In this document: positions 8,006 to 34,740 of the stretch, one piece after another | Position numbering within the stretch: position 1 is the first letter of the stretch | Layout: each line of letters begins with the position of its first letter | Assembly: GCA_013816585.1 (NCBI GenBank) | Contig: JACDEE010000002.1 | Coordinates: forward strand, 124,001-188,000 | Source of the DNA: Sphingosinicella sp. | GTDB taxonomy: Bacteria; Pseudomonadota; Alphaproteobacteria; Sphingomonadales; Sphingomonadaceae | Length of the DNA stretch: 64,000 bases | Direction of reading: 5' to 3' | Translations under genes and position numbers: made by a program | Notes under the pieces: generated by a model | What the model was told of the DNA's origin: nothing | Databases searched by the model: none | Seen by the model: the letters and a program-made list of their open reading frames with translations, nothing else

Positions 8006-8123
8006 GGAGCGTTCCCAGGCTAGCCGGTCATTGAAACTGGGCCAGGCCCCTTTTACGTTAGCATCCAGCGACGCCGAACCACGGCGCCCCGCAGGCCATG
8101 ACCTGCCAATAAGGAGAACATCG

Positions 8124-8618
8124 ATGGCCGACCGGGTCAACAACCTACAGGACATGTTCCTGAACAGCCTCAGGCGATCAAAGACACCCGTCACGATGTT
8201 TCTCGTCAAAGGTGTGAAGCTGCAGGGAATCATAACCTGGTTCGACAATTTCTCCGTCCTGCTGCGCCGGGACGGCAATGCGCAGCTTATCTACAAACAT
8301 GCCATTTCGACGATCATGCCCACCCAGATGATCGACCTTGCCGAGATCGAACGCGCCTTTGCCCAAAGCCAGGATAAGAAGAAGTCCGTTTTGCTTCAGG
8401 AAGTATTTCTAACTGCGGTTCGACGGGCCGAGGAACCGGTGACGATGTTCCTCGTCAATGGCGTGATGCTCCAGGGGCATATCGCCGCCTTCGATCTTTT
8501 CTGCCTGATCCTCCAGCGCGAGGGGATGTCGCAGCTGGTCTACAAACATGCGATTTCCACAGTGCAGCCCGACAATCCAATCAGCCTCGTCGAAGGCGAA
8601 GCGGAGCAGGACTCCTGA
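8124..8618 (+). CDS. hfq: RNA chaperone Hfq with two tandem Sm-like domains (164 aa)
   Basis: Two copies of the Hfq core: [28 protein letters not shown]...[10 protein letters not shown] and [28 protein letters not shown]...[10 protein letters not shown]. Confidence 0.95.
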
Positions 8619-9916
8619 GCATATTCGACCGGTCGGCTGACGAAGATGTCAGCCGCGGCGCTCGCGCCATCATCGCGCTTCCCGATCTTGGCGGGGAGGC
8701 GAGGCGTGATGTAGAGGCACGCCTGGACGAAGCGACCGGCCTTGCCGAAGCGATTGGCGTGGTCGTCGCCGAGCGCCTGCACTTCAAGATAAGATCGCCA
8801 AAGCCGGCGACCTTGTTCGGGTCCGGACAGGTCGAATCAATCGCGGCCGCTGCTGCTGAGGTGGAGGCCGAGCTCATCATCGTGGATGCGGCGATCACGC
8901 CGATACAGCAGAAGAATCTGGAAAGCGCCACCAAGACCAAGGTGATCGACCGGACAGGGCTTATTCTGGAAATTTTCGGCGAGCGAGCGGCCACGTCGGA
9001 AGGGCGCCTTCAAGTGGAATTGGCCCATCTCGATTATCAGGCAGGCCGCCTGGTCCGGTCCTGGACCCACCTTGAGCGGCAGCGCGGTGGTTTTGGCTTC
9101 CTCGGCGGTCCCGGTGAAACCCAGATCGAGGCGGACAGGCGAATGATCCGCGACCGCATGGCGAAGCTTCGCAAGGAGCTGGAGCAGGTGACCCGCACTC
9201 GCGCGCTGCACCGCGCCCGGCGACAGCGGGCACCCTGGCCCGTAATTGCCCTGGTCGGTTATACCAACGCCGGAAAGTCCACGCTTTTCAACCGCATGAC
9301 GGAAGCTGACGTCATGGCGGAGAATTTGCTTTTCGCCACTTTGGATCCGACCATGCGCGAAATCGCCATGCCCGGGATCGAAAAGGCCATATTGTCGGAT
9401 ACGGTAGGCTTCATCTCGAACCTTCCCACCCAATTGATCGCGGCTTTCCGGGCCACGCTCGAGGAAGTCATTTCGGCCGATCTGATCATCCACGTACGCG
9501 ACATCTCGCATCCGGACACCGACGCGCAGCGGATGGATGTCGAACAGGTGCTGACCGACATCGGCGCCGCGGGCGAGGGGAAGGCACCCCTGATCGAGGC
9601 CTGGAACAAGATCGACCTGCTGGACGACGAGGAGATCAGCAGGGTTCAGGCGGAAGCCGTGCGCCGCGAGGATGTGATTTTGATCTCAGCGCTCTCGGGA
9701 CAGGGGCTGGAATCACTATTCGCCTGTGCCGTGTCGAAGCTCAGCGAAGGCAATCAGATACGCAAGGTCACTTTGCCCGTAGGCGCGGGGGAGGCGATTG
9801 CGTGGCTCCATTCCAATGGCGAGATAGTCGGTCAGCGGCGGCGGGACCTTCAGACGGATTATGAAGTGCGCCTGTCGGATACCGACTGGGCTCGCTTCCA
9901 GGCGCATTTCAGCTAG
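8615..9916 (+). CDS. hflX: GTPase HflX (start uncertain; probable CTG at 8615)
   Basis: [37 protein letters not shown]; conserved N-terminal coding continues upstream of GTG 8759 to about 8615 in frame. Confidence 0.88.
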
Positions 9917-10686
9917 GATTTCAGCTCTTTCTTGGCGCGCTGCCAAAGGTTTTCCAGCGAATCGATGTGCATGTCGCCCAAAGGCCCGTCAGCCAATTGC
10001 TCAACCTTTCGGAACCGTGCCTCGAAGCGCGCGGAAGCTTCACGCAGGGCGGTTTCGGGGTCTATGTCGAGGTGCCGGGCATAATTGACCATTGAAAAGA
10101 GCAGGTCGCCCACCTCCGCACTTCGCTCGTCCTGCGTTTCCGCGGCGTCTATCTCGCTCAATTCCTCGTCAATCTTGCGGCGCGGCCCGTCGGAATCGGG
10201 CCAGTCGAACCCCACTCGCGAAGCCCGGCGCTGCAGCTTTTCCGCGCGTTTCAGCGCGGGGAGGGCCAGGGCGACATGGGCGAGGGCGCTTTGGTCCTCC
10301 CGTTCACCACGCTCGGCCGCCTTGAGGGCTTCCCAGCCGGGACTCTCATCTTCATCGCCAAATATGTGCGGATGCCGGCGGACCATCTTCGCGCATATCG
10401 AGCGGAGGACGTCTTCGATGGCGAAGGCGCCCGATTCCTCCGCCATTCGGGCGTGGTAGACGATCTGAAGCTGGAGGTCGCCGAGCTCGTCCTGCAGATC
10501 CGCCATGTCGCCGCGCTGGATCGCATCGGCGACTTCATAGGCCTCTTCGACCGTGTAGGGCGCAATCGTTTCGAACGTCTGTTCACGGTCCCAGCTGCAG
10601 CCATTCACCGGATCCCGCAACCGCCGCATGATCTCGACCAGATCGGCGAGAGCGGAATTGCCTTTGCAAACGTCCATACCCGACAT
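9913..10686 (-). CDS. mazG: Nucleoside triphosphate pyrophosphohydrolase MazG
   Basis: LVEIMRRLRDPVNGCSWDREQTFETIAPYTVEEAYEVADAI; start MSGMD at 10686 preferred. Confidence 0.96.
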   Translation of the reverse strand: MSGMDVCKGNSALADLVEIMRRLRDPVNGCSWDREQTFETIAPYTVEEAYEVADAIQRGDMADLQDELGDLQLQIVYHARMAEESGAFAIEDVLRSICAKMVRRHPHIFGDEDESPGWEALKAAERGEREDQSALAHVALALPALKRAEKLQRRASRVGFDWPDSDGPRRKIDEELSEIDAAETQDERSAEVGDLLFSMVNYARHLDIDPETALREASARFEARFRKVEQLADGPLGDMHIDSLENLWQRAKKELKS

Positions 10687-10767: not shown

Positions 10768-11121
10768 ATGGCGAAGCATCGGATTTATTCAACCAGCGTC
10801 TCCAGCGTCTATCCCCATTATGTCGCCAAGGCCGAGAAAAAGGGACGCACCAAAGCCGAGGTCGACGAAATATTCCGATGGCTGAGCGGACATAGCCAGA
10901 AGTCGCTGGACGACACGTTGGCAAAGGGAACCAGTTTTGAAGATTTTTTCGCGCACGCGCCCCGGATGAACCCGTCGCGGTCACTGATAACCGGCGTGAT
11001 CTGCGGCGTTCGACTGGAGGAAATCGAAGAGACGATTATGCGCGAGATCCGTTATCTGGACAAATTAATCGACGAACTCGCCAAGGGAAAGACGATGGAG
11101 AAAATACTTCGTACCCCATAG
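10768..11121 (+). CDS. DUF2200 family protein
   Basis: [43 protein letters not shown], compact 117-aa DUF2200 pattern. Confidence 0.85.
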
Positions 11122-11188: not shown

Positions 11189-11216
11189 ATGTCCGATAAT
11201 ATACATTATGTAAAAT
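11189..11216. other. Candidate chromosome dimer resolution site (dif; XerC/XerD 28-mer)
   Basis: ATGTCCGATAA-TATACA-TTATGTAAAAT; right arm TTATGTAAAAT differs at 1 of 11 from the E. coli dif XerD arm TTATGTTAAAT; lies between convergent genes. Confidence 0.75.
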
Positions 11217-11319: not shown

Positions 11320-11919
11320 TCAAGGCGTCAGAATGAGATTGGTGCCTTCCACTCGCCAGCCGGAAAGCGATGAGAGGAAGTTCATGCCGAGCACATTCAT
11401 GTCGCCAAACGCCTCGGAGACATGGACGGCAAAATCTTCCCGCTCGATCTGCCCGACCTGAAGATTTTCGACCCGCGCCCGCTGTACGGTTATGCTGCCA
11501 TTCGCGGTGTTCACCAGTACGGGAAAGCCGCCGCCGACCCGAATATTGGCCTGGCGCGCGGTTTCGGCCGAAATGCTGGTCGTCGTGGCGCCGCTATCGA
11601 TCAGGAACCGCACAATCTGGCCGTTCAATTGCGCGTTTACCCAGAAATGGCCATCAGGCGATTGCCTGATGCGAAGGTCTCCGCCCACCTGGACGCCGCC
11701 TTGCTCGGCCCGGCTTTCATCCATGACTCGCTTTCCGAGCCGCAAAATATCGTCTTTGAGCGCAAACAGGACGAATATAAGCAAGAAGATGATGATCCAG
11801 CCTGCCATCATCTTGAACCCCTGGCGCATCGGAATTCCGCGGACCATAAGGCCACTGGCCACCAGGATGATACACAGAATAAGGTAAACAAGTTCAGGTG
11901 TTTGGCCACCGCCGCTCAT
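11320..11919 (-). CDS. Retropepsin-like aspartic protease, TIGR02281 family
   Basis: N-terminal TM segments; FLIDSGATTTSISAETARQ and NVLGMNFLSSLSGWRVEGTNLILTP. Confidence 0.88.
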   Translation of the reverse strand: MSGGGQTPELVYLILCIILVASGLMVRGIPMRQGFKMMAGWIIIFLLIFVLFALKDDILRLGKRVMDESRAEQGGVQVGGDLRIRQSPDGHFWVNAQLNGQIVRFLIDSGATTTSISAETARQANIRVGGGFPVLVNTANGSITVQRARVENLQVGQIEREDFAVHVSEAFGDMNVLGMNFLSSLSGWRVEGTNLILTP

Positions 11920-12680
11920 AGTCTAACCTCAAGCCCATCATGTCCGGGAACGACAATGTCCGGCAGTTCGGCGCAAAGCGTCTCATAATCCATCGACTGG
12001 TCCATATGGGTCAGGATGGCCATGCCGGGGTTGATGATCCCGATCCAGTCCAGCGTCCGGGCGAGATGAGGATGGGTTGGATGCGGATGGCGGCGCAGGG
12101 CATCCACGACCCATAAGTCGACGTTTCGGAAGAGCTCGACCATCTCATCGGTGAGGATATTGAAATCGGTCGAATAAGCGATCGATTTTCCCTCCGCATC
12201 GAAGCGGATCCCGGCGGAGGTTATTTCGCCATGTGGTTGGTCCACGATCCGGACCCGGATGCCGCCTATTTCCATCTCATCGGGGAGCAGGGCGGCGGTG
12301 ACGACCGGCGGATACCCTCCCTTCCCCTCGAAGGCATAATCAAAGCGGTGGGTGAGTGTCTCCAGCGTATCGCGCCTCGCGAAGCCTGCCACGGGAGCCC
12401 CTTTGGCGTGGAACAGCTGCCTCAGATCATCGATGCCGTGGCAATGGTCGGCATGATCGTGGGTCCATAACAAAGCCGTCACGTCCGTGATTTTGGCGTC
12501 AAGCAGCTGTTCGCGAAGATCGGGGCTGGTATCGACCAACATCCTGGTGTCGCCATGGGTCACAAGGATGGAAGCCCTGCGCCGCCGGTTCTTCGGATTG
12601 GCAGGATCGCAATCGCCCCAATCGTTGCCGACCCGGGGCACGCCCGATGAAGTGCCGCAGCCGAGGATGCGGACCTGCAT
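11916..12680 (-). CDS. MBL-fold metallohydrolase (PhnP-like phosphodiesterase)
   Basis: ILGCGTSSGVPRVG, WTHDHADHCHGIDDLR. Confidence 0.9.
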   Translation of the reverse strand: MQVRILGCGTSSGVPRVGNDWGDCDPANPKNRRRRASILVTHGDTRMLVDTSPDLREQLLDAKITDVTALLWTHDHADHCHGIDDLRQLFHAKGAPVAGFARRDTLETLTHRFDYAFEGKGGYPPVVTAALLPDEMEIGGIRVRIVDQPHGEITSAGIRFDAEGKSIAYSTDFNILTDEMVELFRNVDLWVVDALRRHPHPTHPHLARTLDWIGIINPGMAILTHMDQSMDYETLCAELPDIVVPGHDGLEVRL

Positions 12681-12681
12681 G

Positions 12682-13458
12682 TCAGTTGCGCGTCTTTGCG
12701 AATAATTTGCCGAAATTGGACGACGTATATCGGGAAAGCTCTTCCAGGCTTTCGGACCGAAGATCGGCGAGGAACCGCGCGGTGTCGGCGACGAAGGCCG
12801 GCTCGCAGGGCTTTCCCCGGTGCGGAACGGGAGCGAGGAAGGGAGAATCGGTTTCGATCAACAGGCGTTCGGCAGGAAGGCTGCGGGCCGTTCCCTGCAA
12901 ATCCCGTGCGTTCTTGAACGTCACGATGCCGGATATCGAGATGTAGAAGCCGAGGCCGAGCGCCTTCTGCGCAAAATCGGCACTGGCGGTGAAGCAGTGA
13001 ATGACTCCGGTGAACGCCCCCTTGTCCATCTCGTCGGCTAGGATGCGATACGTATCCTCCTCGGCCTCGCGGGTGTGGACGATGATCGGCAGGCCCGTTT
13101 CCCGTGCCGCGACGATATGCGAACGGAAGCTCGCCCGCTGACGATCGCGATCCGATCGGTCATAATAGAAATCCAGCCCGCTTTCGCCGATGCCCACCAC
13201 CCTCGGATGCCGGGCCCGATCGATCAAAGTCGTGGCCTCGACATCGGGATGAATGTCGGCCTCATGCGGGTGGATCCCCACCGATGCCCAGACATCCTCT
13301 TCTCGGTCGGCCACGCCGATGACATCGTCCCATTCGCTGGCGCGGGTCGAAATGTTCAGCATTGTGGTAACGCCGGCAGCGCGGGCGCGCTCGAGCACTC
13401 CGGCCTGATCCTCGACCAGGCCCTTATAGTTCAAATGGCAGTGGCTATCGATGAACAT
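12682..13458 (-). CDS. TatD family metal-dependent hydrolase
   Basis: MFIDSHCHLNYKGL, VGIGESGLDFYYDRS, IHCFTAS, LIETDSPFLAPVPHRGKPCEPAFV. Confidence 0.95.
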   Translation of the reverse strand: MFIDSHCHLNYKGLVEDQAGVLERARAAGVTTMLNISTRASEWDDVIGVADREEDVWASVGIHPHEADIHPDVEATTLIDRARHPRVVGIGESGLDFYYDRSDRDRQRASFRSHIVAARETGLPIIVHTREAEEDTYRILADEMDKGAFTGVIHCFTASADFAQKALGLGFYISISGIVTFKNARDLQGTARSLPAERLLIETDSPFLAPVPHRGKPCEPAFVADTARFLADLRSESLEELSRYTSSNFGKLFAKTRN

Positions 13459-32113: not shown

Positions 32114-34740
32114 CAGAATGCGGTTCCTACGTTGAAGGTGAAAAGCTTCGTATCGTCGCCTTCCTCTTTCAGGATCGCCTTGGCGATATCGATCCTGAAG
32201 GGGCCGAACGGCGAGTTCCAGTTGATCCCAAAGCCGACGGAGAGGCGAGGCTTAGGAGAGTCTCCCACAAACTTCTCCTGGAAAGGGCTAATGCCTCCGG
32301 CGGGAGTGGTGCCGGTGGGGCAAGTTCCGGCGTCGGAGGGCGGTGTAGACTGGCCATTGGCACCGATGCACCTGTTCTGGGTGCGCGGATCAGATGGCAG
32401 GATGCTGGTCGTATTAGGGTCCTTGATGCCGAATACAGAGCCGATATCGACAAAAACGGAAGGCCGCAGTCCCATCTCTCGTATACCGGCGCCTAGCGGA
32501 ATTTCGATTTCGGCGCGTCCCGCATAATAAGCACGGCCGCCAATGGCATCCTGCGAAATAAGGCCCTCTTTCCCGGGAACAAGGGCGCCATCTGCGCCGT
32601 AACGCCGACGAAGGACCCGCGGTCCAATTCCGCGAATGTCGAAGCCTCGCATCTGCGGTTCTCCGAGGAAGAACCGGTCGATCAGGCGAACCGGGTCCTG
32701 ACCGGACCCTTCGGAATCGTCAAAGCTGTGGACATAACCACCTTCGACATTGGCCGAAAAGATGAACCCGCGCCCGATATTCCAATATTTAGCGGCGCTG
32801 GCGCGCGTTCGCAAATAGTGGATGCTTCCGCCCAACCCTGCAAAATCCTGGTGAATCAAGGCGCGCTGACCGCGGGTCGGGCGAAGGCGATTGTTGAGCG
32901 TGTTATATTCAAGCGAATAGCCGACCGACGACACAATATTGGTGCCGATCGATTCGCAAAGATAGCGTCCGGCGATCAGCGGGTCACAGACCGCAGGGAG
33001 CGGACCGGCACCGTCGGGATCCGAGAAGAACAGATCCTCATCCAGCGTCACCTTGTCGTGGTTCAACCCGTAACGCACGGCCATCGACACATATTCGGTG
33101 ACCGGGAAACCAGCGCGAAGCTGCCCGCCGGTCGTTACCTGCTCGTAGGTGGTGTTGCGGTCATTGTTGATGAAGTTGAAGCTGTTGAAGTCGCGCCGGT
33201 AGACATCGAAACCGAGCGCGATATTGCGATCGAACAAATAGGGCTCAGTGAAGCCGAGCTCGACCGACTTCGAATAGGTCGAATAATTGACGCTGGCGCG
33301 GACGACCTGGCCCTTGCCCATGAAGTTGCGCTGCTGGATCGACGCATTGATCAGGAAGCGCTCGAGGCTGGAGAACCCCGCCGAAAGCTGCAATTCGCCG
33401 GTGGATCGTTCTTCCAGATTCGTGGTCAGGATGACGCGGTCCGGAGCCGACCCCTCCGTCTGCTCGATCTCCAGATTGTCCTGGAAGAATCCGAGCGACT
33501 GGATGCGATCGCGTGAGCGCTTCACCCGGACGCTATTGAACGGATCTCCCTCGACCAAACGGAATTCGCGGCGGACGACCTTGTCGCGGGTGTTGGTGTT
33601 GCCGTTGATATCGATCCTTTCGACATAGACGCGGGGCGCCTCCGCGATCTTGAAAGTGACCGACATGGTTTTCTTTTCGGGATCGCGTGAGAAATCCGGC
33701 TGCGCATCGGCAAAGGCATAGCCGAACAGCCCGGCCGTCTCGTTGAGGCTGGTGACCGTATCCTCGATCAGCTTGGCATTATACCAGTCACCGGCCTTCA
33801 TCGGCAGCAGCTGCTGCATATCCTCGGACTTGAAGTCGCGGATTTCGCTTTCGACCTTCACGTCGGCGAATTTATACCTTTCGCCCTCCTCCACCACATA
33901 AGTGATGATGAAGTCGCGGCGATCGGGGGTGAGCTCGGCCACCGCGGAAATGACGCGGAAGTCGGCATAGCCCTGGGTCAGGTAGAATTGGCGCAATTTC
34001 TGCTGGTCGGCGGCAAGACGGTCAGGATCGTAGCTGGTATTGCCGCTGAAAAAGGAGGTGAGACGCGCCTGCTGGGTATACATCTCGCCGCGCAGGTCGG
34101 AATCGGGAAAGGCTTCGTTGCCGATGATGTTGATCTGGCGGACCTTGGACTTGGGCCCTTCGCTAATCTCGAACACCACATCGACGCGATTCTGGTCGAG
34201 CTGGATGATCTTCGGTTCGACCTGGGCGGCGAAACGGCCCTGGCGGCGATAAAGCTCGATGATGCGGGCGACATCGGCGCGTGCCTTTGAACGCGTGAAG
34301 ATCTGCCGCGGAGCAAGCCGGATCTCCGGATTGATCTTGTCCGCCTTGAGGCGCTTATTGCCTTCCAGCACGATGCGATTAATGACCGGATTTTCCACCA
34401 CCCGGATGATGATGTTTCCAGTGTCGACGCCGCCGATCGTGACGTCGGCGAACAATTCGGTTTCCAGCAGATCGCGCAGCGCCTGGTCGACGCTTTCGCG
34501 GTCATAAGCATCGCCGACGCGAAGCTGCATGTAGGATATGACCGTTTCCGGCTCCAGCCGCTGGTTGCCGCTGACGGCGATGGAACGTACCGTACCGGTA
34601 CCGGGCAGGCCGGTGGCCGGAGCTTGGGGCGCCGGGGCCGGCTGGGCATAGGCCGGAACCGCCAGACCGCCGAGGATCGTGCCCATCAGCAGAACGGAGC
34701 AAAGCCGCCGTTTCGTGGAATTTTCCTTGATCGCTGTCAC
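32113..34740 (-). CDS. bamA: Outer membrane protein assembly factor BamA
   Basis: POTRA repeats and C-terminal barrel with IRGIGPRVL and FDIRGI region; terminal ...KLFTFNVGTAF. Confidence 0.96.
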   Translation of the reverse strand: MTAIKENSTKRRLCSVLLMGTILGGLAVPAYAQPAPAPQAPATGLPGTGTVRSIAVSGNQRLEPETVISYMQLRVGDAYDRESVDQALRDLLETELFADVTIGGVDTGNIIIRVVENPVINRIVLEGNKRLKADKINPEIRLAPRQIFTRSKARADVARIIELYRRQGRFAAQVEPKIIQLDQNRVDVVFEISEGPKSKVRQINIIGNEAFPDSDLRGEMYTQQARLTSFFSGNTSYDPDRLAADQQKLRQFYLTQGYADFRVISAVAELTPDRRDFIITYVVEEGERYKFADVKVESEIRDFKSEDMQQLLPMKAGDWYNAKLIEDTVTSLNETAGLFGYAFADAQPDFSRDPEKKTMSVTFKIAEAPRVYVERIDINGNTNTRDKVVRREFRLVEGDPFNSVRVKRSRDRIQSLGFFQDNLEIEQTEGSAPDRVILTTNLEERSTGELQLSAGFSSLERFLINASIQQRNFMGKGQVVRASVNYSTYSKSVELGFTEPYLFDRNIALGFDVYRRDFNSFNFINNDRNTTYEQVTTGGQLRAGFPVTEYVSMAVRYGLNHDKVTLDEDLFFSDPDGAGPLPAVCDPLIAGRYLCESIGTNIVSSVGYSLEYNTLNNRLRPTRGQRALIHQDFAGLGGSIHYLRTRASAAKYWNIGRGFIFSANVEGGYVHSFDDSEGSGQDPVRLIDRFFLGEPQMRGFDIRGIGPRVLRRRYGADGALVPGKEGLISQDAIGGRAYYAGRAEIEIPLGAGIREMGLRPSVFVDIGSVFGIKDPNTTSILPSDPRTQNRCIGANGQSTPPSDAGTCPTGTTPAGGISPFQEKFVGDSPKPRLSVGFGINWNSPFGPFRIDIAKAILKEEGDDTKLFTFNVGTAF

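Follow-up and report, generated by a model that had tools for sequence, protein, structure and literature searches.

The sequence ATGTCCGATAATATACATTATGTAAAAT at positions 11,189 to 11,216 is very probably the single dif site of its chromosome; from comparisons of sequence, we put the probability at about 0.97. It lies in a 64,000-nucleotide stretch of Sphingosinicella sp. DNA (the window), exactly where the initial annotation had placed a dif-like XerCD recombination site. The support consists of an 11-6-11 layout, a single copy, a footprint of 28 bp, convergence of KOPS from ~1 kb on either side, and genes for XerC-like, XerD-like, and FtsK-gamma proteins. The convergence of KOPS polarity, which the initial annotation did not use, is the strongest evidence for dif. 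FtsK-guided dimer resolution by XerCD is established for Escherichia coli and others. By analogy, FtsK would load on KOPS, translocate along both chromosome arms toward dif, and there activate XerD; XerC and XerD on the two 11-bp arms would exchange strands across the 6-bp centre, and chromosome dimers would be converted to monomers at the division septum. The features of the site and its surroundings are as follows.

8031..8618, + strand: hfq, a conserved neighbour
8759..9916, + strand: hflX, convergent with mazG, a conserved neighbour
9913..10677, - strand: mazG, its probable start set by comparison with relatives, in place of the longest-ORF start at 10779
10258..10265, + strand: last KOPS to the left of dif, pointing right (contig position 134258)
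10768..11121, + strand: DUF2200 gene, between mazG and dif in the window genome only, among the genomes compared
11189..11216, + strand: very probable dif site, 28 bp (11-6-11), an exact, unique, conserved 28-bp block bracketed by the KOPS switch
11189..11199, + strand: putative XerC-side arm ATGTCCGATAA, with genus consensus AAGTCCGATAA / AAGTGCGATAA
11200..11205, + strand: central hexamer TATACA, invariant across 21 genus loci, themselves selected by pattern
11206..11216, + strand: putative XerD-side arm TTATGTAAAAT, matching the E. coli XerD arm at 10/11 positions
11320..11919, - strand: TIGR02281-family aspartic protease gene, a conserved neighbour within the family
11916..12680, - strand: MBL-fold hydrolase gene, a conserved neighbour
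12319..12326, - strand: first KOPS to the right of dif, pointing left (contig position 136319)
12682..13458, - strand: tatD, a conserved neighbour

KOPS, the FtsK-guiding octamer GGGNAGGG, was counted on the 285,586-bp contig C47, on which dif lies at 135,189; polarity and skew were both computed on stretches rather than on the whole genome. There are 71 copies. All 29 to the left of the 28-mer are on the + strand and 37 of the 42 to the right are on the - strand, in both cases pointing toward dif, and the best single switch point falls between contig positions 134,258 and 136,319. Permuting the orientations 20,000 times gave a maximum single-switch score of 54, compared to 66 observed. When all octamers were ranked without prior choice, forms of GGGNAGGG were among the most polarised, and related control motifs had weaker polarity or none. 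The switch also brackets dif in three relatives (G017, G002, and G022), at ~0.4 to 2 kb on each side, and in members of two other alphaproteobacterial families (G309 and G444), within 1.7 kb and 4.8 kb. The 28-mer is the point at which KOPS polarity switches, i.e., the segregation terminus, which supports the reading as dif.

GC skew behaves differently from KOPS. An extremum of cumulative skew had been predicted at the site, with an extremum elsewhere named as evidence against it; the skew is weak, and the contig maximum lies 23.5 kb to the right of dif, near window position 34652 (contig position 158652). Taken formally, this offset counts against the site, yet we set it aside, because skew is not strictly coincident with dif and the KOPS signal is far sharper. 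Shift points in skew correlate with dif and need not coincide with it (PMC3025954), and in Pseudomonas aeruginosa it is segregation, not replication, that ends at dif (PMC6199493). In view of these published offsets, we rely on KOPS to decide and take the distance to the skew maximum as uninformative. As a marker of the terminus, GC skew was set aside altogether, since it is weak here and inconsistent among three relatives, in which the maximum over 400-kb stretches was 93 to 113 kb off, on either side. In six relatives with one long contig, dif lies opposite the parS cluster, at a distance of 0.47 to 0.51 of the main contig (the window's own genome is in 62 contigs). The strand counts given earlier are correct: 8 of the 11 genes in the left 11 kb lie on the + strand, and every gene from 11.3 to 19.0 kb lies on the - strand. 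Along the contig the bias is modest and in the expected direction (by length, 57% + to the left and 37% + to the right).

The whole site reads ATGTCCGATAA-TATACA-TTATGTAAAAT. Compared with E. coli dif, the right arm agrees, as first noted, with the XerD arm at 10/11 positions, the left arm agrees at only 5/11, and the centre agrees at 4/6; the left arm is the predicted XerC side by analogy with E. coli. The 28-mer is intergenic and has a lower G+C content than the chromosome, 21% compared to ~61% around it. No other match with ≤3 mismatches was found within the window, where shuffled sequences gave an expectation of 0. A degenerate dif pattern, again allowing ≤3 mismatches, found the 28-mer as its sole match in the whole 2,824,289-bp genome, and the reversed control of that pattern found 0 matches. 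The initial annotation had proposed a search for further copies and had named a better match elsewhere as evidence against the site; in this 2.82-Mb assembly the count proved to be one, with no other match at ≤3 mismatches.

The site is similarly single in the genus. Of 26 genus genomes, 21 gave exactly one match, and a loosened pattern revealed one site each, at the same address, in G014, G015, and G023 as well. Only two genus genomes, 68% and 81% complete, had no match even with the loosened pattern, and every genus member that is ≥95% complete has one such site. Across the 21 genus loci from the first search, positions 7 to 23 are invariant, in part a product of the search pattern that selected them, and the outer arm positions are nearly so. 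Information falls steeply beyond both 28-bp edges, with the exception, on the left, of a short CATC-like stretch, which in the relatives is the start codon of mazG. In two divergent genus members (L272 and L273), the differences are at or adjoining the centre. A scan of the family with a looser pattern gave matches in 232 of 251 genomes and 2 hits in the reversed control; the commonest centre among the family matches listed is TATATA, compared to TATACA in the genus. The site is also present on NZ_PXYJ01000001.1 of Allosphingosinicella vermicomposti. Three family genomes that are 90 to 100% complete (G206, G250, and G067) gave no convincing dif with the patterns used. One genome, G055, has two inverted dif-like copies (CATAATAAGTATTATGTAAA; L275 and L285) ~0.74 kb apart, near the MBL-fold and mazG genes, which could be a duplicated dif or a Xer-integrated insert. 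The exact core CGATAATATACATTATGTNAA is common to the sphingomonad genus and to Actinobacteria (Brevibacterium, Rothia, Arthrobacter, and Gordonia; L037, L053, L089, L096, and others).

The genome encodes the proteins that such a site would need. A 311-residue protein scores best against XerC, and a 298-residue protein, whose gene adjoins an ORF that we take from our own reading of the sequence to be accA-like, scores best against tyrosine recombinase/XerD models. Both scores are below the curated cut-offs of TIGR02224/TIGR02225, and the XerD-like protein passes the broader NF001399 cut-off; with equivalog scores below cut-off, we base the assignment on best match and on the presence of two such proteins. 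The two genes are separate, and both are on contigs other than that of dif. FtsK is encoded as well, and its gamma domain is strong.

The order hfq-hflX-mazG-[dif]-protease-MBL-tatD-metS-holB recurs in sphingomonad loci. In 20 of the 21 genus loci, and in 56 more that came from the collection scan, mazG lies on one side of dif and/or the protease/MBL/tatD run on the other; these 76 are loci with the TATACA core. Among other genera of the family, 29/30 have at least one of these neighbours beside dif, usually on both sides. In 35 of 64 sphingomonad loci, 2 to 8 bp (mode, 4 bp) separate the mazG ATG from the edge of dif on the XerC side, and dif therefore sits in a short spacer between same-strand genes in many sphingomonads. 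In one member of the genus (G008; locus L009), whose main contig is 5.7 Mb long, dif lies opposite parS and neither mazG nor the MBL-fold gene is within 1.5 kb.

This setting bears on a further reading, that a mobile element or plasmid left the 28-mer behind as an XerCD target (a dif-like attachment or resolution site), and that it is not the chromosomal dif. Mobile elements and plasmids can carry dif-like sites, and the 2009 proteobacterial survey found that about one dif site in four has mobility genes next to it (PMC2731167). Here, however, the site is single copy, its setting is that of hfq, metS, holB, and tmk, the gene order is conserved throughout the family, chromosomal KOPS converge on it, and the flanking genes examined include no integrase or phage gene; we give this origin almost no weight.

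Across the class, a strict dif pattern found sites in only 10 of 142 genomes, missing most because arms and centre drift. To gauge the age of the address, we gathered mazG loci across the class irrespective of dif and scanned each with a weight matrix that combined sphingomonad and published sites; this mazG-first search outperformed the strict pattern. Within ~2.5 kb, 47 of the 89 loci carry dif, with scores of 17 to 49 bits, a proportion that is no census given the partly sphingomonad origin of the matrix and the choice of loci in order of similarity to the window's MazG. None of the remaining loci had a score >7.8 bits, and the 549 background blocks, each 2.7 kb long, all scored <10 bits. 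The 47 loci represent 37 of the 63 alphaproteobacterial families sampled. In 33 of them the site is ≤700 bp from the mazG match, and where mazG adjoins MBL or tatD, dif was found in 29/30. Spacing between dif and mazG ranges from 0 to ~2.4 kb across the class, and the orientation is mostly alike, with the XerC-side arm toward mazG. Carnoy and Roten concluded in 2009 that dif has "no apparent specific genetic environment" (PMC2731167); this does not hold for much of the Alphaproteobacteria. Among open-access papers, we found nothing relevant on dif together with mazG or hflX.

The window departs from this arrangement in one respect. A gap of 198 bp separates the DUF2200 gene, which ends at 11121, from the protease ORF (11320-11919, - strand), and the initial annotation took the convergence of these two genes as a sign of the terminus. 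The convergent pair is present, but as an argument for a terminus it falls, being confined to the window genome. In relatives, mazG adjoins dif and has the orientation of the protease, MBL, and tatD genes, and those relatives that have DUF2200 carry one copy per genome, located elsewhere; because the relatives have no DUF2200 gene at dif, we dropped the argument. These comparisons indicate that in the window genome the DUF2200 gene was relocated to the XerC side of dif, where it separates mazG from dif by ~0.5 kb, and that the convergent pair is recent. Inspection by eye of the mazG side of the insertion revealed no convincing second half-site of the kind expected from Xer-mediated insertion.

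The short spacing in sphingomonads raises the question of whether the 28-mer serves mainly to regulate mazG (as a leader, operator, or promoter), its likeness to dif being secondary. A start codon 2 to 8 bp from its edge in 35/64 loci is what such an element might show, but the 28-mer is conserved where mazG is displaced (by ~0.5 kb in the window, and in other families by as much as ~2.4 kb) and in G008 with no mazG or MBL nearby, the same core is present in Actinobacteria, and the KOPS switch falls at the 28-mer. We consider this reading extremely improbable. Functional coupling could instead keep dif beside mazG, if mazG expression or recombination were affected by XerC bound close to the start of mazG or by transcription running through dif. 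Close spacing in sphingomonads and the mostly uniform direction of the XerC-side arm in mazG-selected loci are in its favour; against it, spacing varies across the class, mazG is separated from dif in the window, and simple inheritance accounts for both position and orientation. Coupling is thus unlikely, and a shade less likely is its more specific form, in which dif would be part of the mazG leader or promoter and XerC/XerD occupancy or FtsK passage near division would influence mazG, holding the address since the class arose.

Inheritance, in our view, best explains the conserved address; coupling to mazG is possible and not needed. We infer that dif has stayed at tatD-MBL-(protease)-[dif]-mazG-hflX-hfq since an alphaproteobacterial ancestor. 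It would be hard to move, because KOPS on both sides point at it, and the DUF2200 gene here and the variable spacing elsewhere indicate that insertions and losses nearby are tolerated. Terminus regions are usually regarded as plastic. The address tatD-MBL-[dif]-mazG is recognisable across much of the Alphaproteobacteria; it offers a means of locating dif in genomes whose motif has diverged or whose GC skew is flat, and with it one could test whether dif ever changes position or is held there by KOPS polarity.

As a dif site, the 28-mer is an ordinary representative of a class already well studied. With E. coli dif and the proteobacterial dif set (PMC2731167) it shares the 28-bp length, 11-6-11 layout, conserved XerD arm, AT-rich composition, intergenic position, single copy, KOPS convergence, and the presence of xerC, xerD, and ftsK in the genome. 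It differs from them in its left arm, GTCCGATAA rather than TGCGCATAA, and in its TATACA centre, and from the sites of the 2009 survey in having a conserved address. The Actinobacterial dif-like sites have the same 20 specified bases of CGATAATATACATTATGTNAA in a different phylum, and the window's gene neighbours were not found beside those matches. The difSL/XerS and difH/XerH systems likewise carry out Xer-mediated dimer resolution at the terminus, but they rely on a single recombinase, whose gene is often next to the site, whereas here there are two, encoded on other contigs.
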